Below, piece after piece: positions 11,829-43,743 of a stretch of 64,000 bases of DNA. The DNA is taken from positions 59,320 to 123,319 of the forward strand of contig NZ_VIKW01000012.1 of assembly GCF_009711975.1 (NCBI RefSeq). The letters run 5' to 3'. The translations under genes were made by a program, and so were the position numbers. The first letter of the stretch is position 1. Each line of letters starts with the position of its first letter. The notes below the pieces were generated by a model. That model did no database searches and was not told the origin of the DNA. It saw only the letters and a program-made list of their open reading frames with translations. The stretch is from Anabaena sp. UHCC 0204. GTDB lineage: Bacteria > Cyanobacteriota > Cyanobacteriia > Cyanobacteriales > Nostocaceae.

Positions 11829-11984
11829 AAAGATGTGTTATCTAGAACCTGGCGTTGCTGATTAAGAGTATGATTTTGTTTCACGCAGAGGCGCAGAGTC
11901 TACAGAGAGTAAGAGTTTGAAATCATTGATTTTTGAATTTCATACCCTAATTCAGCAACGCCAAAGATGTGTTATCTAAAACCT
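11829..11984. repeat. Direct repeat flanking a MITE-like element
   Basis: A 22-base direct repeat with one mismatch (AAAGATGTGTTATCTAGAAC, then CT) lies immediately left (11829-11850) and right (11963-11984) of the inverted-repeat element at 11851-11962. It is much longer than the 8-bp duplications of the other two copies. Confidence 0.7.
11851..11962. mobile_element. Non-autonomous GGCGTTGCTGA element, copy 1
   Basis: A 112-bp element bounded by GGCGTTGCTGA on the left and the inverse TCAGCAACGCC on the right. It has no coding capacity. The centre includes CACGCAGAGGCGCAGAG, a common cyanobacterial repeat. It is related in inverted orientation to 29340-29450 and to 30031-30164. Confidence 0.8.
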
Positions 11985-12219: not shown

Positions 12220-12398
12220 TAGCCTATTTGGCGTGTATTTTTCGGAAACATTTAGTTCTAAATTTGGTAATTAAGTTTGCAGAAAATGAGAATGAATTAA
12301 CTAGTGACTCCTCGATATTGTATTAACAAGCGAGGGGTTGAACGGCAAACGAGCAGTAAACAACTCTAAGCGTAATACAAATCAAGGAGAATTCGATC
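12220..12398 (+). repeat. Peptide-gene upstream repeat, copy A
   Basis: First of three copies of a conserved upstream region. Shared blocks in order: TTGGCGTGTATTTTTCGGAA, GGTAATTAAGTTTGCA, AATGAGAATGAATTAACTA, GATATTNTATTAA, CAAGCGA(G)GGGTTGAAC, and a ribosome site AAGGAGAA a few bases before the ATG. Conservation over noncoding DNA suggests promoter and leader signals as well as recent duplication. Confidence 0.8.
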
Positions 12399-12587
12399 AT
12401 GTCTAATCTATTTACCGCAGTAACTGTTGAGCAACAAGAAATCGTAACTGGTGGCTTATTCATCCCCTCCGTTATTGTCCCCCCCGTTTACAAGTTCAAA
12501 GGTAAAAACGTTTTCAATAACAATAGTGGAAATGTTATAATTGCCACTGGTCAAAATAGTGGTACTATAAATTATGGTGTTAGCTAA
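12399..12587 (+). CDS. Double-glycine leader peptide precursor 1 (CTB-type bacteriocin-like)
   Basis: A 62-residue precursor. The leader MSNLFTAVTVEQQEIVTGG ends in Gly-Gly, with hydrophobic residues at the spacing C39 peptidases recognise (Leu/Val at -4, -7, -12). Cleavage would release a 43-residue core beginning LFIPSVIVPPVYKFKGK and rich in Asn, Gly and Val, without Cys. A good ribosome site (AAGGAGAATTC) precedes the ATG. Two paralogues follow, then a peptidase-ABC exporter, adaptor and two-component pair. The leader resembles peptides catalogued in cyanobacteria as CTB family bacteriocins (from memory). Activity, whether antimicrobial or signalling, is not predictable. Confidence 0.82.
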   Translation: MSNLFTAVTVEQQEIVTGGLFIPSVIVPPVYKFKGKNVFNNNSGNVIIATGQNSGTINYGVS

Positions 12588-12930
12588 TTACAGTTTCTAC
12601 GTTCATATCTTTTCATCATGATGATGAATTGAATGTTGAACCTAGAACCTGTCTTTAATTAGTTAAAGTTAGTCAGCTATCAGCCAGATATGAAGTAATT
12701 TAATAGGTCAAATTAATAACCTGTTAATTACTCTCCTGCTGACTGCTGACTACTTTTATTGGTTGAATATTTTATCTACTGCTCATCTTTTAGATTTATC
12801 TTCTAAAGAAATTAGACATTATATTGTTCATATATTTATCTTAAATATTAAATGGTTTTCCTACAACTTATTTATTTAATAAATCCCAAAAGGCTAATCC
12901 TAAGAACAAGATTTAGCAGCAGCTTAGAGA
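12588..12930. other. Spacer after precursor 1
   Basis: About 340 bases without a gene. It contains a perfect palindrome TTCATCATGATGATGAA (12612-12628) shortly after the stop codon and a loose inverted pair GTCAGCTATCAG / CTGACTGCTGAC near 12672-12750. Neither is followed by a clear T-run. The rest is AT-rich. Confidence 0.45.
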
Positions 12931-13163
12931 GATAGCATAAAATTCCTAACTTTATTATAAATATTAGCCACATTGGCAGGTATTTTTCAGAAATGTTGCT
13001 GACGTAATTATGCAACATTTTTTCCTAATTTGGTAATTAAGTTTGCAGGAAATGAGAATGAATTAACTAATCACTTTTTGATATTTTATTAACAAGCGAA
13101 GGGTTGAACAGCAACCAAGCAGTCAACAACTCAGCAATAATTAAAATCAAGGAAAATTCGATT
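12931..13163 (+). repeat. Peptide-gene upstream repeat, copy B
   Basis: Second copy, beginning GATAGCATAAAATTC like copy C and extending to the ATG of precursor 2. It carries the same blocks as copy A (GGCAGGTATTTTTCAG, GGTAATTAAGTTTGCAG, GAGAATGAATTAACTA, GATATTTTATTAACAAGCGA) and a slightly weaker ribosome site, AAGGAAAA. Confidence 0.8.
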
Positions 13164-13385
13164 ATGTCTAATCTATTTAGCCCAGTAACTGTTGAGCAAC
13201 AAGAAATCGTAGCTGGTGGCTTTTCCCGCCGCCCCAATATCACTCATAAAAATCAGTTCATCGGTAAAGTTGTTTTCAATGACAGTTCTAGAAATAATGG
13301 AGTAGCAATTGGTCAAAATAAGGGTAATGTTATTATTCATAACAACTATTATTTTTATAATATAAATATACCAATATATTTTTAA
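13164..13385 (+). CDS. Double-glycine leader peptide precursor 2
   Basis: A 73-residue precursor from the ATG at 13164; an in-frame upstream start at 13104 lies inside the conserved noncoding repeat and is rejected. The leader MSNLFSPVTVEQQEIVAGG is nearly identical to precursor 1. The core starts FSRRPNITHKNQFIGK, has a basic front, and shares the pattern VFN..S.NN..I..GQN.G with precursor 1 before ending in a Tyr/Asn/Ile-rich tail (NNYYFYNINIPIYF). No Cys, so no disulfide or lanthionine bridges. Expected substrate of the C39 exporter at 14754. Confidence 0.82.
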   Translation: MSNLFSPVTVEQQEIVAGGFSRRPNITHKNQFIGKVVFNDSSRNNGVAIGQNKGNVIIHNNYYFYNINIPIYF

Positions 13386-13400
13386 ACGAGATATATTACA

Positions 13401-13438
13401 ATTACCCTCCTCACTTACCTTGTGGGTAGGGGGTTAAT
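13401..13438 (+). terminator. Possible hairpin after precursor 2
   Basis: ATTACCCTCC is followed after a short loop by GGGTAGGGGGTTAAT, giving an imperfect GC-containing hairpin starting 15 bases after the stop codon. No long T-run follows, so it may act as an RNA-stabilising structure, not a strict terminator. Confidence 0.35.
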
Positions 13439-13491
13439 GATATTTCCTATATATAAATATCTCAATTTTTAGAAAAATCCAGTTTAATACA

Positions 13492-13724
13492 GATAGCATA
13501 AAATTCATTATTTTATTAAAAGTATTAGCCACATTGGCGTGTATTTTTCGGAAATACTGCTCACGTAATTCTGCCATATATCTGTCCCAATCTGGTAATT
13601 AACTTTGCATAAAATGAGAATGAATTAACTAGTGACTTCCCGATATTCTATTAATAAGCGAGGGTTAAATGGCAAAAGAGCAGTCAATAACTCAGCGATA
13701 ATTCAAATCAAGGAGAATTTAGTC
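13492..13724 (+). repeat. Peptide-gene upstream repeat, copy C
   Basis: Third copy, ending at the ATG of precursor 3. It shares GATAGCATAAAATTCAT and ATTAGCCACATTGGCGTG with copy B and the TAATTAACTTTGCA, GAGAATGAATTAACTAG and GATATTCTATTAATAAGCGA blocks with both others. The ribosome site is AAGGAGAA. Confidence 0.8.
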
Positions 13725-13952
13725 ATGTCTAATCTATTTACCATCGTATCTGTTGAACAACAAGAAATCGTAGCTGGTGGAGTACGTAGTAGACTTAGAT
13801 CCAGATATACATATGAAGAGAACAAAGCTTTAGTAATCAGAGGGTTCAAGTTCAGTAATGGTAGAGGTGGAGTTGAATTGAAGTTTGATCTATTGAGAGC
13901 AGATTCTGAGATCAATGAAGAGTCTGTATTCAAAGCATTCGTTGGTGTATAG
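13725..13952 (+). CDS. Double-glycine leader peptide precursor 3
   Basis: A 75-residue precursor from the ATG at 13725 (the frame is open upstream to 13632 but that part is the noncoding repeat). The leader MSNLFTIVSVEQQEIVAGG matches precursors 1 and 2. The core differs completely: VRSRLRSRYTYEENKAL at the front is strongly basic, followed by RGFKFSNGRGGVELKFDLL and an acidic stretch ending AFVGV. Same leader with unlike core is what is expected of a family sharing one exporter while the mature peptides diversify. Confidence 0.82.
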   Translation: MSNLFTIVSVEQQEIVAGGVRSRLRSRYTYEENKALVIRGFKFSNGRGGVELKFDLLRADSEINEESVFKAFVGV

Positions 13953-13956
13953 TTGC

Positions 13957-13974
13957 TACCAATAATTATTGGTA
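13957..13974. repeat. Perfect 18-nt palindrome after precursor 3
   Basis: TACCAATAATTATTGGTA is perfectly self-complementary and begins 5 bases after the stop codon. The unit AGTTGCTACCAATAA is repeated once more about 30 bases on (from 13983). It could be an mRNA 3'-end structure or a protein-binding site. Confidence 0.45.
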
Positions 13975-14139
13975 ATAGACTTAGTTGCTACCAATAAATT
14001 AATCATAAAAAAATGTCAGATTTTATCCGTAAATATAATTAATAATTATTATAATTTACGGACAAATTAACTTTCGTAGGCTCTTAATTGACATAAAGAG
14101 AATATAGGTAAGTAAAAATCTGGCATACTTTTATGATGG

Positions 14140-14186
14140 AAAGATGATTGTTAGCCGTTAAATTTAAACAGTTAACAATCATCTTT
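14140..14186. repeat. Long hairpin before precursor 4
   Basis: AAAGATGATTGTTA and TAACAATCATCTTT form a perfect 14-bp stem with a ~19-base loop, about 50 bp before the ATG at 14234. Another stem (CCGTAAAT / ATTTACGG) lies at about 14027-14063. These may separate the first three precursor genes from the fourth and the transporter. Confidence 0.5.
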
Positions 14187-14233
14187 CAAAATCAAATATT
14201 GTTAACCAAAAGCAATGATAATAATAGATTAAT

Positions 14234-14518
14234 ATGTTGAAACATACTCCAGGGCTAAAATCCGAATTATTCCAGCAGATATCAAAACAGGAACAAGAAC
14301 TTATATCTGGTGGCTATTCAATCTTAAAACTGACAAAAATTACATCTTTAGCTAACATTCAAATATCTTCTTTAGATACTACCATCAATATAGATAGTGA
14401 ATATACATTTACGGAACTTATAATCGGCATAGATTCATCTTTTCTAGGTAGTACAAGACGTGGAAGGAGAATCAGAAGTTTGAATAGCTTATTTAAATTA
14501 TTATCAAGACTATTTTAA
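14234..14518 (+). CDS. Divergent double-glycine peptide precursor 4
   Basis: A 94-residue protein whose first 27 residues (MLKHTPGLKSELFQQISKQE then QELISGG) fit a longer double-glycine leader; LFQQISKQEQELISGG parallels LFTAVTVEQQEIVTGG. The predicted 67-residue core starts YSILKLTKITS and ends in a basic amphipathic stretch (RRGRRIRSLNSLFKLLSRLF), typical of membrane-active peptides. It lacks the upstream repeat of the other three and has a weak ribosome site. It lies 235 bp before the exporter gene. Assignment as precursor is inferred from leader and position. Confidence 0.65.
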   Translation: MLKHTPGLKSELFQQISKQEQELISGGYSILKLTKITSLANIQISSLDTTINIDSEYTFTELIIGIDSSFLGSTRRGRRIRSLNSLFKLLSRLF

Positions 14519-14753
14519 GCACCCGGTAAAACAGCAATTGAGACGGGTTTCCCTCCGTAGATGACTGGTGGAATGAACACAAAGGGGGTAGGGTTCTTGT
14601 TCTTCATCACACGAGAAGTGCTGTAAATTGAGCGCATCTTTATACAGAATTGCTATCAGCAACTAAATTTAAGAGTGATAAGTTTCTACAAAAATAAAGA
14701 AAAAACTAACAGCACTACAATTTTTATTCGCAACTATCTAGGGTGTTTTACTT

Positions 14754-16904
14754 ATGAAAATTCAATTTGTGCAACAACATAGCGAAGAAGATTGTGGGGC
14801 GGCTTGTTTGGCTGCAATTGCCAAACATTATGGTCAGAATTTTACTATTAGCAGGATTCGGGAAGCTGTAGGAACGGGGCAATTTGGAACTACTTTATTA
14901 GGATTAAAACGAGGAGCAGAAATTTTAGGTTTTAAAGCAAATCCAGTCAAAACCTCCCCAGATATATTAGATAGAATTAATGAAGCTCCCTTACCAGCAA
15001 TTATTCATTGGCAAGGTAATCATTGGGTAATTTTATATGGTAAAAAAGGTAAAAAATTTCTGATTGCAGATCCCGCAATAGGTCTTCGTCATCTTTCCCA
15101 AGAAGATGTAGAAGCAGCTTGGACAGATTGGTTATTATTATTAATAGAACCAGATCCTATTCGCTTTTTTTCTCAAAAGCAAGATAAAGAAGGTGGTTTT
15201 TGGCGTTTCTTCAAACGCGTGTGGATTTATCGAGCTATTTTATTTCAAGCTTTACCGCTCAATTTAGTATTGGGTTTATTGTCTTTAGCTTCTCCTTTTC
15301 TCTTACAAATTCTCACCGATGATGTATTAGTTAGAGGTGACACAAAATTATTGACTACAGTAGTAATTTCTGTAGTTGTTATGAATGTAATTTCTAATAG
15401 CCTCTCATTTATCCAATCTAACTTAATTGCTCATTTTGCCCAACGAATACAATTAAGTCTAGTTCTAGAATTTGGGCGACAAATTTTACGTTTACCATTA
15501 ACTTATTATGAAACTCGTCGCAGTGGTGAAGTTGTTAGCCGTCTGCGAGATATTGATCAAATTAATCAATTAGTTGCTCAAATTGTTGTTGGTTTACCAA
15601 GTCAATTTTTTATTGCGGTAATTTCCTTGGGTTTTATGTTTTTCTATAGTTGGAAACTTACCTCAGCCGCTTTAATAATTGCGATGGTGATGACCATCTC
15701 TACCTTTATTTTCCAGCCCACATTACAGCAAAAAACCAATGAACTTTTAGTCACAGAATCCGAAACACAAGGGGTATTAGTCGAAACTTTTAAAGGTGCA
15801 TTAACTTTAAAAACAACTACATCAGGTAGACAATTTAGAGATGAATTAGACAATCGGTTTAATCGTCTAGCTGGATTGACATACAGAACAATGCAAATAG
15901 GGATTATTAATAATACATTTTCGGGCTTTGTTTCTGGTATTGGTAGTGTAATTCTACTCTGGTTTGGTGGCTATTTAGTAATTAACCCCGCTGAAAACTT
16001 GAGTATTGGGCAATTACTAGCCTTTAATTCCATGAATGGTAATTTTGTATCTTTAATTAGTACAGTTATTAATTTTGTGGATGAATTTACGCGAGCTAAA
16101 ACTGCTACCCGTCGGCTCACAGAAGTTATTGATGCCACTCCTGAAGATGATGATGATGACAAAAAACCTTTGGCGACAATTTCGAGTGATGCTGATATTA
16201 TTTGTACAAATTTAACCTTTCATTATCCTGGTCGCATTGACCTATTAGACGATTTTTCTCTGACGATTCCTGGAGGTAAAGTTATTGCTTTAATTGGTAA
16301 ATCTGGATGTGGAAAAAGCACTTTAGCCAAATTAATTGCTGGTTTATATCAATTCCAATCTGGTAATATACGAATAGGACTTTATAATCTCCAAGACCTT
16401 TCTTTAGAATCTCTCCGTCAGCAGGTAGTTCTTGTTCCTCAAGATGCTCATTTTTGGAATCGTTCTATTGTTGAAAACTTTCGGTTAGGAGCGCCTTATG
16501 TCACATTTGAGCAAATAGTTCAAGCTTGTCAAATTGCTGGTGCTGATGAATTTATCAGTAAACTTCCAGAAACATATCAAACTGTTTTAGGTGAATTTGG
16601 TGCTAACATTTCTGGAGGACAAAAGCAAAGATTAGCTCTAGCTAGAGCCATTGTTACAGATCCAGCAATTCTGATTTTAGATGAATCAACTAGTGGACTT
16701 GATCCAGTTAGTGAAACCCAAGTTTTAGACCAACTTTTCAAACATCGTCAAGGTAAAACAACTATTTTAATCACACACCGTCCCAAAGTAATTAATCGTG
16801 CTAATTGGGTTGTTTTAATAGACAAAGGTCAATTGAAATTAGCAGGTTCTTTGCAAGATTTACGAACTAAATCAGGAGATCATTTAGATTTTATAATCCC
16901 TTAA
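14754..16904 (+). CDS. Peptidase-containing ABC exporter (C39, bacteriocin type)
   Basis: A 716-residue inner-membrane exporter that cuts double-glycine leaders while pumping the core out. N-terminal C39 peptidase: oxyanion Gln8, catalytic Cys14 in SEEDCGAACLAAIAKHYG, His90 in GNHWVILYG and Asp106 in IADPAIG, all present. A six-helix transmembrane domain follows (about 165-440). The ATPase has Walker A GKSGCGKST, signature ISGGQKQRLALARA, Walker B ILILDEST and switch ITHRP. The gene ends 6 bp before the HlyD adaptor. Precursors 1-4 immediately upstream are the obvious substrates. Confidence 0.95.
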   Translation: MKIQFVQQHSEEDCGAACLAAIAKHYGQNFTISRIREAVGTGQFGTTLLGLKRGAEILGFKANPVKTSPDILDRINEAPLPAIIHWQGNHWVILYGKKGKKFLIADPAIGLRHLSQEDVEAAWTDWLLLLIEPDPIRFFSQKQDKEGGFWRFFKRVWIYRAILFQALPLNLVLGLLSLASPFLLQILTDDVLVRGDTKLLTTVVISVVVMNVISNSLSFIQSNLIAHFAQRIQLSLVLEFGRQILRLPLTYYETRRSGEVVSRLRDIDQINQLVAQIVVGLPSQFFIAVISLGFMFFYSWKLTSAALIIAMVMTISTFIFQPTLQQKTNELLVTESETQGVLVETFKGALTLKTTTSGRQFRDELDNRFNRLAGLTYRTMQIGIINNTFSGFVSGIGSVILLWFGGYLVINPAENLSIGQLLAFNSMNGNFVSLISTVINFVDEFTRAKTATRRLTEVIDATPEDDDDDKKPLATISSDADIICTNLTFHYPGRIDLLDDFSLTIPGGKVIALIGKSGCGKSTLAKLIAGLYQFQSGNIRIGLYNLQDLSLESLRQQVVLVPQDAHFWNRSIVENFRLGAPYVTFEQIVQACQIAGADEFISKLPETYQTVLGEFGANISGGQKQRLALARAIVTDPAILILDESTSGLDPVSETQVLDQLFKHRQGKTTILITHRPKVINRANWVVLIDKGQLKLAGSLQDLRTKSGDHLDFIIP

Positions 16905-16910
16905 ATAATT

Positions 16911-18308
16911 ATGCTTTATACTCATAATCAAAAATTCAATTTCTCCAAAAATGATGAATCTCTTCCACCGATAAGTATTTGGACAACATTAGCAGGTATG
17001 TTTCTTGTCGGTACTGTGGTTACTGGTATTTCTTTGTCTTCATGGGTGAAATATAATGTCACTGTCAAAGTCGCTGCTATTGTTCGTCCTATAGGTGAAA
17101 CCCGTGTAGTGCAATCAAAGATAGAAGGGGCTATTAAAGATATTTTAGTCAAAGAAAATCAAGTTGTTAAGCAAGGGGAAGTAATCGCCATTTTAGATAC
17201 TGAGCAATTACTAATCAAAAAAAGTCAATTAGAAGATAATATCAAACAAAGTAGATTACAAATAATCCAAATTTATGCTCAAAACCGGACTTTAAATAAT
17301 CAAATTATATCTGAAAAAAAAGTGATAGAAAATATTGTTAATTCTGCTAAAGAGGATTTATTAAGAAATCAAAGAGAATACAAAGAACGAAAAATTAATA
17401 CTGAAAGTGAATTAATGGCAGCGCAAGTAAATATCCAAAAAGAATTAGTAGATTTGCAAAAGGCTCAGGCTGATTTAGAATTTGCAAAAGTGGATCGCGA
17501 TCGCTATGAACAATTATCACAAATTGGCGCAATTGGTAAGCGAGAATTTGAGCAAAAACAGCTAGTTGTTAAACAGACAACTTTAACACTGCAATCTGCA
17601 AAAAAAGCTGTTGATATAGCCAAAATAAAAATTAAATCCACCCAAGCTGCGATTAATCCTACGACAGCAATGGTCAAAATGGCACAGGAAAGGATTGCTC
17701 AAGAAACCGCGAAAGGTGAAGCTAATATAGCTGCTTTAAATAAAGAAAAGGAAATTTTAGTTCAGCGATTAGTAGAAATTCAAACACAAATCAAACAGTC
17801 ACAAAAAGAACTCCAGCAATTAGAAAATCAACGAAAAAGTAGTATGATTCTTGCTACTAGTAACGGCATTATCTTTAAACTTAATTTACGAAATCCTGGT
17901 CAAGTAGTGCGTGCTGGTGAATCTATTGCTGAAGTTGTCCCTGATAATGCTTCTTTGGTAATTAAAGCCATGATTCCCACTGCGGAAATTAACAAAATTG
18001 CCATTGGTCAAAAAGTACAACTTCGGATTGATGCTTGTCCATATCCTGATTATGGAACTGCTAAGGGTGCGGTGAAAACTATTGCTCCCGATGTTATTAC
18101 ACCTCAAAGTAAAGATACAACTACTCCAATGTCTGCTGGTGTTAGTTACTTTGAAGCCACAATTCAACCCGAAAGTAGTTCCTTTGGCAATAATGGCCGT
18201 CAGTGTCTTCTGCAATCAGGAATGAACGCTACAGCCGATATAATTTCTAGGGAAGAAACAGCATTGCAATTTATGTTGAGAAAAGCCAGGTTAATTACTG
18301 ATTTATGA
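16911..18308 (+). CDS. HlyD-family adaptor for peptide export
   Basis: A 465-residue periplasmic adaptor joining the exporter to an outer-membrane channel. It has a single membrane helix near residues 28-48 after a short cytoplasmic part, a lipoyl half-motif (GAIKDILVKENQVVKQGEVIAILD), a long alpha-helical hairpin (about 100-305, Gln/Lys/Glu-rich), the second lipoyl half (ATSNGIIFKLNLRNPGQVVRAGE) and a beta-barrel with PDNASLVIKAMIP. The C-terminus ends in the membrane-proximal domain. It is almost contiguous with the C39 exporter. No TolC-like gene is nearby, so a shared TolC is presumably used. Confidence 0.93.
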   Translation: MLYTHNQKFNFSKNDESLPPISIWTTLAGMFLVGTVVTGISLSSWVKYNVTVKVAAIVRPIGETRVVQSKIEGAIKDILVKENQVVKQGEVIAILDTEQLLIKKSQLEDNIKQSRLQIIQIYAQNRTLNNQIISEKKVIENIVNSAKEDLLRNQREYKERKINTESELMAAQVNIQKELVDLQKAQADLEFAKVDRDRYEQLSQIGAIGKREFEQKQLVVKQTTLTLQSAKKAVDIAKIKIKSTQAAINPTTAMVKMAQERIAQETAKGEANIAALNKEKEILVQRLVEIQTQIKQSQKELQQLENQRKSSMILATSNGIIFKLNLRNPGQVVRAGESIAEVVPDNASLVIKAMIPTAEINKIAIGQKVQLRIDACPYPDYGTAKGAVKTIAPDVITPQSKDTTTPMSAGVSYFEATIQPESSSFGNNGRQCLLQSGMNATADIISREETALQFMLRKARLITDL

Positions 18309-18348
18309 GTAACGATTGAGTTTATATTCCACCTTTTAAGTCATAATC

Positions 18349-19008
18349 ATGATATCGTTTATGACATCTAATCAAAGAATACAGCAAGCATTACAGTGGT
18401 GGTTTTATAGAGAATTCTTGAAACTATTTCTGGAATCCGAAAAAATTCGTGATGATCTATTACAAGAATCTTTTACAATCCGGCGCGATCTAGATTTATT
18501 AATTATAGATAACCTGAATTTATCAGTTACAAGAATTCCAGCCCATATCAGAAAAATTGATAATTTTCATCATTCTTTAGTCCAATTGAGCGATCGCTTA
18601 TGTCCAATCTCTATTCAAGATAGTCTACCTTTATCTATTGAGTGTTTATTAGAACCGTGGATTAATTCCAATCCCTATCTAGATTTTCAAATTAATATGC
18701 CAGTTTACTGGCGAATTGAAGAACCTGAAAGGAGTTGGATAATTTTAAGAGTTTTAGAAGAATTACTGAAAATAACTTTACCAGAAACAGAAAGTTTACT
18801 CCCTATTTATATTCAAATTACTCTCAAACAAATAGGAAGTATCGGGCTATTGACTGTAAAAATTTCTTATCCTGATATATCCACTCTGATTTTTTACTCC
18901 CATTTGCCAGAATTAGAATATCTTTACGATAGCTTTAAATTCTTAATATCTGGTAAATGCTCCTACTTTAATAAGAATCTCATGTCAATTTGGCACTTTT
19001 ATTGGTGA
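18349..19008 (+). CDS. Degenerate kinase-like protein of the peptide cassette
   Basis: A 219-residue soluble protein, possibly from ATG 18349 or 18361. The N-terminal helices (REFLKLFLESEKIRDDLLQESFTIRRDLDLL) and the later ILRVLEELLKITLPETE segment are laid out like the dimerisation region and the first helix of a HATPase domain. However, no phosphoacceptor His motif, Asn of the N box or glycine-rich G boxes are present. It lies 40 bp after the adaptor and before the response regulator. I infer a pseudo-kinase or scaffold for the two-component pair; it could also be an immunity protein. Not recognised as a named family. Confidence 0.6.
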   Translation: MISFMTSNQRIQQALQWWFYREFLKLFLESEKIRDDLLQESFTIRRDLDLLIIDNLNLSVTRIPAHIRKIDNFHHSLVQLSDRLCPISIQDSLPLSIECLLEPWINSNPYLDFQINMPVYWRIEEPERSWIILRVLEELLKITLPETESLLPIYIQITLKQIGSIGLLTVKISYPDISTLIFYSHLPELEYLYDSFKFLISGKCSYFNKNLMSIWHFYW

Positions 19009-19280
19009 GTATTTTCTATGACTTGATATCTCGGAGAGTACCTGGTACTATATCTCTCCAAACTCTGATCAATACTAAATTATTTTTAAATAAAGATAAT
19101 TTTCATAGTTATACATAAACCTAGTAATTTCAGTATTTTTTAATGATCTTTAATGGGGTGAGGGGTGTGACCCCCCATAGCTGATAAATTATAAGTAATA
19201 GAATCTAGTAAAACTAATTAATAGTAGTAGATAGCAATCAAAAATTATCAGGTGTGTAACTATTGAGGCATTTATTAGAT
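19009..19280. other. Spacer with two hairpins
   Basis: Noncoding stretch before the response regulator. GGAGAG...CTCTCC flanks TACCTGGTACTATAT (about 19033-19059), and ATGGGGTGAGGGGTGTGACC continues into CCCCAT (about 19152-19178), a GC-rich hairpin. These may attenuate read-through from the transporter genes. No T-run follows. Confidence 0.4.
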
Positions 19281-19958
19281 ATGCAACAGGTTTTATCAAA
19301 AAAAACAATTTTCAAGTTCATGGTTATTGATGACCACGAATCAGTTTTAAATGGAACAGTTGAAATACTAAGAAAAAAATATCCTAGTGCTGAATTTAAT
19401 ACTGCTACAAATGCTAGTTATGCTTTTGAGCAAGTAATTAGCTATCAACCTGATTTGCTAATTATGGATCTTTCTATCCCAGAAAAAATGACAATGACAG
19501 CAAGAGTTGATACAGGTATTCAACTGCTAAAAGTCTTAATGGAAAATTATTCCCATCTAAATTTTGTTGTGCAAAGCGCCCATGTGAGAACATTAGTTAG
19601 AATTCGTCCTTATATTGATAATCATAAAGGAGGCTTTACTGTTGCTGATAAAAGTCTTTCTACCCAAGAAATGTTAACTAGAGTTGATTGGTCATTACAG
19701 GGATTAACTCACACAAAAGATATTAAAGGAATCCACTCAGGATTAGAGGTAAAACCAGAGTGGTTAAAGGTACTAAATTTAGCATTTGAAGAAGGATTAC
19801 AAGATAAAGTAATTGCTAAAAATATGTGTATATCTGAACGCATGGTGCGTCATTATTGGAGTAAGTTGCAAGACGCTTTAAATATTTATCCAGAAGAAGG
19901 TAAAAACATCCGTATTCAAACGGAAATGAAAGCTAGAGCCGAAGGATTAATTGATTAA
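19281..19958 (+). CDS. NarL/LuxR-type response regulator
   Basis: A DNA-binding response regulator of 225 residues from ATG 19281; a TTG at 19263 is also in frame. Receiver domain: FKFMVIDDHESVL acidic pocket, phosphoacceptor Asp about residue 63 in PDLLIMDLSIPE, and a Lys in TVADKSLS. The C-terminal helix-turn-helix (VLNLAFEEGLQDKVIAKNMC, then ISERMVRHYWSKLQDAL) is LuxR-like but with WLKVLNLAFEEG in place of the usual LTPREREVL. It is followed at 36 bp by a histidine kinase. Likely target: the peptide genes upstream. Confidence 0.88.
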   Translation: MQQVLSKKTIFKFMVIDDHESVLNGTVEILRKKYPSAEFNTATNASYAFEQVISYQPDLLIMDLSIPEKMTMTARVDTGIQLLKVLMENYSHLNFVVQSAHVRTLVRIRPYIDNHKGGFTVADKSLSTQEMLTRVDWSLQGLTHTKDIKGIHSGLEVKPEWLKVLNLAFEEGLQDKVIAKNMCISERMVRHYWSKLQDALNIYPEEGKNIRIQTEMKARAEGLID

Positions 19959-19994
19959 TTAACATAGTCATGTACTTTATCCGATTGAGGTCTT

Positions 19995-20888
19995 ATGCAA
20001 GCTCAGATTTTTGAAAAAGTTCAAAAAAGAATTTATTTTATTGCTGTAGGAAAATTAGCAGGAATTATCATTACTATTTTTAGTCTAGAATTGATTAGCT
20101 ATATTTTGTTAACTAGGGGTTGGTCAGTTTCTCTGGTACTAGGAATTTGTGTTGTCGTGATAAATTGCATTATGTTTATAGCACTATATGAATACAACCA
20201 AGCTTTTAAGTCGGTAATTCAAGCTCGTCAAACGATAATTGAAATTACATTTGAAACAATTCATAATGGACCACTCCAAAGTCTCGCTAAAGTTTTAAAA
20301 GTAGTGAGAGGAAAAGATTTACCCATAAATAAATTATTGCCTTTAATAGAAAAAGAACTAGAAGAATTGAACCAAGAATTACGGGGAATGTACGATTTTT
20401 TGCAGCAAGAAACCTTGACTCAAGATACCAGCCTTTATATAGGAAATAATGTAGTTATAGATTTGCGAAACCCTTTACATGAAATTTTATATCAAGTTTA
20501 TAGCTACACCTTAGATCGAGATTTTCCTTGCTTTAGAACTCTAAAGCTGAAAATCCACAATTTTGAACCTATTCATGAAAACAGTTTAAGTATTGAAAAT
20601 AAGCGAGGACTCTGCCGATTTTTAGAAGAAGCCTTGTGTAATGTTGGTAAACACGCCACAGGAATCACCTCTCTACAAGTTACTTATTCTTCATCCCAAG
20701 GACGTTACACTTTAAGTATTATGGATAATGGTTTGGGAATTCAATCATCTAAAGAAGGTTGGGGGACAAAACAATTTAAAAATTTAGCCCGACAAATAAA
20801 AGGTAAATTTCGACGAGTTTCTCTTTATCCTCAAGGTACTCTTTGTGAATTATCTTGGCCTTTAGCCAGTTCTTTTTGGTGGCAATAA
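19995..20888 (+). CDS. Membrane histidine kinase (NarX/DesK-like)
   Basis: A 297-residue sensor kinase. Two membrane helices (about 17-38 and 45-66) with almost no loop leave little room for a periplasmic sensor, as in intramembrane-sensing kinases. The phosphoacceptor is His90 in FETIHNGPLQSLAKVL (HisKA_3-like). The HATPase part has FLEEALCNVGKHATG (N box), MDNGLGIQ (G1) and GWGTKQFKNLARQI. It pairs with the LuxR-type regulator just upstream. Position at the end of a peptide-export cassette suggests it senses the peptide or envelope stress caused by it (inference). Confidence 0.9.
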   Translation: MQAQIFEKVQKRIYFIAVGKLAGIIITIFSLELISYILLTRGWSVSLVLGICVVVINCIMFIALYEYNQAFKSVIQARQTIIEITFETIHNGPLQSLAKVLKVVRGKDLPINKLLPLIEKELEELNQELRGMYDFLQQETLTQDTSLYIGNNVVIDLRNPLHEILYQVYSYTLDRDFPCFRTLKLKIHNFEPIHENSLSIENKRGLCRFLEEALCNVGKHATGITSLQVTYSSSQGRYTLSIMDNGLGIQSSKEGWGTKQFKNLARQIKGKFRRVSLYPQGTLCELSWPLASSFWWQ

Positions 20889-20920
20889 AAATCAATCAAT
20901 TATTCATTTTTTCCCATGTA

Positions 20921-20986
20921 GGGGCGAAGCATTCGGGCGATTAATTATCGGTTTTTTCCCAAGTTTATTTTCCGAATGCTTCGCCC
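20921..20986. repeat. Inverted repeat after the kinase gene
   Basis: GGGGCGAAGCATTCGG and CCGAATGCTTCGCCC form a 15-bp stem with a ~35-base loop. This GGGCGAAGCATTCGG sequence is a widespread cyanobacterial repeat. It may act as a 3' barrier for the peptide cassette. A further CCCGCTTCGCGAACG repeat follows near 21010. The remainder up to 21179 has no gene. Confidence 0.6.
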
Positions 20987-21179
20987 TTACACTAAATGCT
21001 GATGCTTACAGCCCGCTTCGCGAACGTCCTTACACCTAATACTGATATTTCTAATTACCGTCATGGATACGCCCCTACGACTCCTGCTGTAGCTGATTGC
21101 AGATCGCATTTTGCTCAACAACTGTGCCAATATAGAGAATCAAGAACTATATTGAGCAAGAGGAAAGCAGAAAAACGCC

Positions 21180-43371: not shown

Positions 43372-43374
43372 CAG

Positions 43375-43743
43375 AAGAGAGTCGGTAGTAAGCCGGGTTC
43401 TGTTCTCTTGCGAGGGCAGTTATCTATCTGGGATGCTTGTTACCAAACACCTCTAGCGGCTCTTTTTCAGCGGAACTGGTAAAAGACCAACCGTAGTTCC
43501 TCCGGCCTTGCTTCCAACCGGGGTTTACCGAGCCAACGCCTCTCGACGCTGCTGGTGCGCTCTTACCGCACCTTTGCACCCTTACCAACCAATAAATTGA
43601 TTGGCGGTATCTTTCTGTGGCACTATCCTCACGATCGCTCGCACTGGACGTTATCCAGCAAGTTTGGTCTTTCGGAAGCCCGGACTTTCCTCAAACCAGT
43701 CTTAATGACTGATCTGCAACTGCCTACGCCTACTCCCTTCCTA
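43375..43743 (-). ncRNA. rnpB: RNase P RNA
   Basis: The catalytic RNA of RNase P, which trims tRNA 5' ends. Minus-strand landmarks: 5' end near AGGAAGGGAGTAGGCGTAGG, conserved GAGGAAAGTCCGGGC, GAGGATAGTGCCACAGAAA, AAACCCCGG, and the 3' end AGAACCCGGCTTACTACCGA. The P12 region carries CCAATCAATTTATTGG, an expanded stem typical of heterocystous cyanobacteria. Length about 369 nt; ends are by comparison and may be off by a few bases. A -10-like TGTAAACT lies just upstream (43750-43757). Plus-strand reading frames in this interval are not genes. Confidence 0.93.

Follow-up and report, generated by a model that had tools for sequence, protein, structure and literature searches.

A conserved double-glycine peptide locus of Anabaena and its relatives with a predicted pseudo-histidine kinase and a putative regulator site before the precursor genes

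The 64,000-nucleotide stretch of Anabaena sp. UHCC 0204 DNA analyzed here (the window, part of contig 3 of a 5.74 Mb genome) carries nine genes on the plus strand as read from its open reading frames (Table 1). These encode four precursor peptides (P1-P4), a C39 peptidase-containing ABC exporter (C39), an HlyD-family adaptor, and a trio consisting of X219, a response regulator (RR) and a membrane histidine kinase (HK). The locus is an inherited unit, and we consider it probable that the RR switches the precursor genes through a 17-bp element located 166-186 bp before P1-P3. The 17-bp element, an Arg at the phospho-His position of X219, repeated loss of the CHASE2 sensor domain and two classes of cargo peptide are new here. 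The arrangement in the window is beyond chance, because the upstream DNA of P1-P3 is alike over ~190 bp and the gene order is kept in relatives. A previous sequence-only reading had described four leaders ending in double glycine (GG), an intact exporter, an adaptor 6 bp behind it, and a degenerate kinase, a regulator and a membrane kinase on the same strand. All of this was confirmed by the coordinates, the four leaders and the C14, H90 and D106 residues of C39.

The element, GTGTATTTTTCGGNAAT, was revealed by aligning the upstream DNA of 28 precursors. It is found ~190 bp before many precursor genes, and in some relatives before C39 and X219 too. The exact element has 23 matches in 60 genomes, 22 of which are at the exporter locus (one, at a contig end in G010, was assigned by its shared flank) and one in a glycosyltransferase-like frame of G019. 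A profile search for X219 gave 77 loci (1.41 Mb) in named genomes, cyanobacterial in every title, and with up to 2 mismatches these contain 63 plus-strand sites and 1 minus-strand site, compared with 2 for the backwards pattern. A site is located upstream of X219 in 48 of the 68 loci linked to C39. Outside the genus the count is 41/60 vs 1/60 for the backwards pattern, where seven rows from five non-genus loci were in view when the consensus was chosen and four of the 60 loci (L134, L141, L150 and L156) were among those used for it. The spacing is similar across targets, with 41 sites 165-279 nt before precursors (median 191), 7 sites 214-240 nt before C39 and 5 sites 181-250 nt before the X219 match. 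The remaining 10 sites were unassigned to a gene. Two of these, in the Fischerella loci L153 and L165, are 2-mismatch copies after HK, ~3.5 kb past the X219 start, and possibly precede a further target gene.

A 39-column position weight matrix (PWM) built from 37 thinned sites scored above 14 upstream in 66 of the 68 loci, while the maximum for backwards sequence was 11.2 over all 77; the two misses are L109, a 3.3-kb contig, and L165. The limit of 14 was set post hoc and the matrix is partly circular, yet a matrix trained on the remaining loci found weaker sites in 18 of the 20 loci that contributed no site. Several results weigh against the element as a general switch. In these 20 C39-linked loci (of 68) nothing upstream matches the element at up to 2 mismatches, precursors outnumber sites at L055 (five vs two) and L067 (three vs one), and the matrix scan gives no element before C39, P4 or X219 of the window. 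A genus-only matrix beat all controls in just 27/60 loci, but it was overfitted (10 sites, 39 columns) and is not our main evidence. Additionally, a search of the 60 genomes with up to 1 mismatch returned 66 matches vs 48 for the backwards pattern; stray matches are therefore mostly chance, and such hits are meaningful only if exact or within the locus.

The element could instead be read by another regulator, with the trio as a vertically inherited neighbor. This would explain element-like matrix scores at C39 loci that have no adjacent trio (L084 29.9, L090 27.1 and L095 14.2), and also trios that have no visible C39 (6/77 and L081). The L084 genome showed solely a 55% RR paralog (L080), while the L090 genome (G052) retains the trio elsewhere (L075/L172), which fits control in trans. 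However, at up to 2 mismatches there were zero sites at ten RR-HK loci without C39 (L073-L082) and at eleven C39 loci without an adjacent trio (L014, L083-L090, L095 and L096), and in some relatives the element is found in front of the X219-RR-HK genes themselves. Among the former, L075 reached a matrix score of 18.7 at a site downstream of HK. We regard a foreign reader as unlikely. The 17-bp element is likely a site for the RR, as predicted from its distribution and from the helix-turn-helix (HTH) motif of the linked RRs listed, which have in common an HTH helix unlike that of most paralogs.

The checks on gene order in relatives support a conserved unit. X219 is present in 27 of the 60 genomes, own included, and C39, called at an identity of at least 72%, is upstream of X219 in 68 of the 77 named loci. 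Downstream of X219 are the RR (74/77) and the HK (72/77), and the full order C39-HlyD-X219-RR-HK on one strand is kept in 64/77. The RRs of exporter loci form a single clade of 25 vs ten unlinked rows (100/99), where L050, L052 and L056 were taken as linked with C39 on a different contig. The kinase pair thus belongs with the exporter, as the sequence-only reading had assumed. Judged by flanking genes and without a species-tree comparison, a recent foreign island was rejected as an origin, the flanks being retained at many loci (cobU 16/77, orfB 18/77 and rnz 31/77).

The same reading had called the system self-contained, which agrees with a unit that is mostly kept together but not with a number of exceptions. 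Nine of the 77 loci are without C39; three of them end at contig edges (L104, L130 and L152), and at the other six (L169, L172 and L174-L177) both C39 and HlyD were unseen, with short upstream DNA at L174 (2.2 kb) and L175 (2.6 kb). The missing C39 at L169 may be a loss, since its RR helix is of the linked type and its sister L170 has C39. Further counterexamples are C39 exporters of 74-76% identity without an adjacent trio (G026:C7, G017:C64, G023:C65 and G052:C128), and C39-HlyD-X219 and RR-HK on separate contigs in G003 (L091, L050; L102, Dolichospermum planctonicum). In G052, a trio follows cobU-orfB without an exporter (L172/L075), while L090, at another place in the genome, has a C39 gene spread over two frames and an element-like site. 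This arrangement may represent the locus in a split or not yet fused form.

The signaling residues are intact throughout, window included, with the His, N-box Asn and G-box Asp/Gly of the HK in 82/82 and the Asp of the RR in 83/83 sequences. In Pfam scans of the window proteins, Response_reg of the RR passes its threshold (36.8 vs 30.2), while GerE is weak (14.7 vs a gathering score of 23.5) and HATPase_c of the HK is under its gathering score (20.2 vs 26.4). The HK of the window differs from CHASE2 sensor kinases in having a short loop between two membrane segments, as judged by eye, and no CHASE2 in the protein or in the surrounding DNA. The HKs of its 15-row clade are likewise without CHASE2, though most relatives carry it: 56/73 kinase loci have a match, and two full-length relatives that were scanned gave E-values of 5.3e-64 and 1.8e-65. 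The CHASE2 sensor has been lost or eroded about six times, and one loss predates the lineage of the window.

The HK would phosphorylate the RR, which would bind the 17-bp element and activate the CTB-like genes P1-P3 (see below for this class). C39 would then cleave the leaders after Gly-Gly, and HlyD would convey the cores outward. CHASE2 would supply the HK of most relatives with an outside sensor, while input in the lineage of the window may come via the membrane helices, the exporter or the cell interior. The suggestion of the sequence-only reading that the peptides form a regulated system holds to the extent that the precursors are connected to a kinase-linked locus by the upstream element they have in common. 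Its further suggestion, auto-induction through an extracellular sensor, is not supported here because CHASE2 was lost before the lineage of the window.

X219 has the predicted fold of a histidine kinase, which together with its sequence bears out the earlier description of a degenerate kinase, and we predict it to be a pseudo-histidine kinase. The phospho-His position is Arg in 75/77 loci and His in L135 and L140, and the N-box column, chosen by eye, has Asn in 0/77. The low whole-chain Foldseek TM-scores, at most 0.46 among the matches listed, weigh against this assignment. X219 was rejected as a chance reading frame, as a relative is encoded at 77 loci. It could be a decaying pseudogene near loss, since it is truncated in 4/16 genus genomes (G004, G005, G008 and G009) and the N-terminal hydrophobic stretch of its relatives is absent in the genus, as judged by eye. 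However, an alignment of 20 intact copies has 24 invariant columns, and neither these nor the retained Arg would result from decay, which makes plain decay highly improbable. Rather, X219, with its predicted kinase fold but no phospho-His, probably tunes the HK or serves as its scaffold. A more far-reaching proposal is that the pseudo-kinase is the true input or brake of the peptide-secretion circuit, and that CHASE2 was repeatedly shed because X219 or the exporter feeds the HK. We find this doubtful; if true, a sensor-driven system became one in which export state sets the output of hypervariable surface peptides.

The cargo of the genus loci falls into two classes, a CTB-like class with the leader MSNLFTxVSVEQQEIVAGG and a P4 class with SDLFxxLSEKEQESISGG, the latter being closest to C39. 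Median pairwise identity within the genus is 0.84 for CTB-like leaders but only 0.23 for their cores, which equals shuffled cores (0.23; 14 of 21 genus peptides, with three from the window and one each from other loci). For all 9 P4-type peptides of the genus, leaders reach 0.70 and cores 0.65 vs 0.24 when shuffled. No P4-type gene was found at L048, L053 and L055. We infer from these sequences that P4 is a constant cargo and the CTB-like peptides a variable set of one exporter. In Scytonema sp. NIES-4073 (L143), nine precursors with the same leader are arranged in tandem, mostly with 375 bp spacing, and are followed by one P4-type precursor.

The window precursors resemble the CTB family of bacteriocins (NF038167) in having a GG leader, but differ in that all score under the 32-bit cut-off (P1 20.1, P2 19.7, P3 27.1 and P4 16.6 bits). 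Ten further peptides were scanned, and four of the CTB class from relatives passed (L063 52.6, L068 72.2, L067 72.0 and L058 43.6 bits), while the CTB-class peptide of L055 and all five of the P4 type failed. P1-P3 look like diverged CTB members, because precursors of relatives at the same locus exceed the cut-off. The P4 profile matches 53 proteins; every one with an organism name comes from a cyanobacterium, and one bears the name CTB family bacteriocin. The label PF28158.1 gave no match in the Pfam copy used. The predicted model of P4 is a beta hairpin with a basic C-terminal helix, at low confidence (pLDDT 62.5). The cores had been described as free of Cys, and Asn/Gly-rich or basic. They contain 0 Cys and have isoelectric points of 9.7-10.1, and P1 and P2 are rich in Asn/Gln (fractions 0.19 and 0.24), whereas P3 and P4 are not (0.05 and 0.06), and none is notably Gly-rich (0.04-0.12).

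A classical auto-inducing bacteriocin cluster, in which one exported peptide is the pheromone for the HK and the rest kill competitors, would fit CTB cores that vary to the shuffled baseline, as rival-directed peptides might. It would also fit the gene content, which in the available text on the blpRH-controlled pneumocin cluster likewise includes a two-component system driving several transcription units, its response regulator binding repeated sites ahead of them (PMC4739728). The window locus differs from the blpRH cluster by its pseudo-kinase, its CHASE2 ancestry and the lack of a recognized inducer peptide. The protein families presumably differ as well. Against such a cluster, the window HK has neither CHASE2 nor another recognized extracellular domain, profile scans of known families gave no immunity gene among the nine genes, and precursors are retained at the short-kinase loci L134, L145, L166 and L173 and in the clade of the window, although at L151 and L168 our pattern gave no precursor. 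We therefore hold this cluster type to be improbable. By analogy with EbfG in Synechococcus, the chances that the cores are variable surface or matrix peptides appear about even, and bacteriocins about one in three. Surface or matrix peptides are thus more likely than classical bacteriocins, since there is no recognized immunity gene and one conserved cargo stands beside a variable set.

The transport half of the locus is of the ordinary cyanobacterial "group III" cluster type, and exporter and adaptor are of an already known kind. C39 has Peptidase_C39, ABC_membrane and ABC_tran (126.8, 121.8 and 113.2 bits) with no other family above cut-off, and the Cys/His/Asp residues and ABC domains of a peptidase-containing ABC transporter, which would cleave the leaders and export the peptides. 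It is short and without CAP_ED, with HlyD adjoining, and several short GG precursors accompany it, in line with group III clusters as the available text describes them (Wang et al. 2011, PMC3140520). The conserved trio and the upstream element accompany the unit here, unlike in that description; the main text has none of the terms "histidine kinase", "two-component" or "response regulator". Compared by description, the locus is also like EbfG1-4/PteB of Synechococcus elongatus PCC 7942, where four GG precursors adjoin a C39 exporter, EbfG1-4 contribute to biofilm and EbfG1-3 form amyloid (PMC4997328, PMC9981879). The term "response regulator" is absent from the available text of PMC9981879. 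One CTB operon of Nodularia CCY9414, a strain outside the 77 named loci, rises under phosphate starvation according to the available text of PMC9846622. Our literature search found no paper linking a two-component system to these C39/GG-peptide clusters.

The own genome has two further C39-HlyD loci, both without the 17-bp element at up to 2 mismatches. L014 (G000:C77:88000-106500; 63% and 40% identity) carries, besides a P4-type paralog, a full member of the CTB family (76.1 bits) and a precursor whose core is a W-G-R rich tandem repeat, while L089 (G000:C33:93000-107000) has an exporter of 59-60% identity.

Table 1. Genes and elements of the locus, in window positions.
Feature	Position	Strand	Description
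P1	12399-12587	+	CTB-like precursor; leader MSNLFTAVTVEQQEIVTGG; core 43 aa
P2	13164-13385	+	CTB-like precursor; core 54 aa
P3	13725-13952	+	CTB-like precursor; core 56 aa
P4	14234-14518	+	second precursor class, conserved core
C39	14754-16904	+	peptidase-containing ABC exporter, 716 aa
HlyD-family adaptor	16911-18308	+	starts 6 bp past C39
X219	18349-19008	+	predicted pseudo-histidine kinase; Arg at phospho-His position
RR	19281-19958	+	REC and LuxR-type HTH; ATG start, alternative TTG at 19263
HK	19995-20888	+	membrane histidine kinase without CHASE2; catalytic residues retained
17-bp element before P1	12233..12249	+	1 mismatch; 166 nt to ATG; PWM 35.6
17-bp element before P2	12978..12994	+	3 mismatches; 186 nt to ATG; PWM 33.4
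17-bp element before P3	13539..13555	+	exact; 186 nt to ATG; PWM 41.7

The precursor genes have 5' leaders at window positions 12305-12398, 13070-13163 and 13630-13724. A stretch like CUCCUCGAU in these leaders has two alternative pairing partners, a local CGAGGGG and the AUCAAGGAG of the ribosome site, and this alternative pairing is a possible translational switch, based on a consensus RNA fold of 14 leaders in one computation without a control. The locus has 0 Rfam matches at gathering score; class A RNase P RNA is located at 43373-43737 on the minus strand of the window. Strong inverted repeats before P4 (14139-14187) and after HK (20917-20991) are possible terminators or repeat elements, and direct and inverted repeats upstream of the P1 region (11829-11984) resemble a small repeat element. 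An anti-phage system was rejected, the PADLOC matches being limited to the ATPase part of C39 and the receiver part of the RR.

GG peptides are widespread in cyanobacteria and their triggers are mostly obscure. The gene block described here is common to bloom-forming and other filamentous cyanobacteria, and it offers a regulator, a candidate site present across Nostocales and a conserved kinase that is predicted to be inactive, which makes the peptide trigger and the role of the peptides in bloom-formers testable. Additionally, the repeated loss of a sensor domain with the remainder intact constitutes a natural experiment on circuit rewiring.

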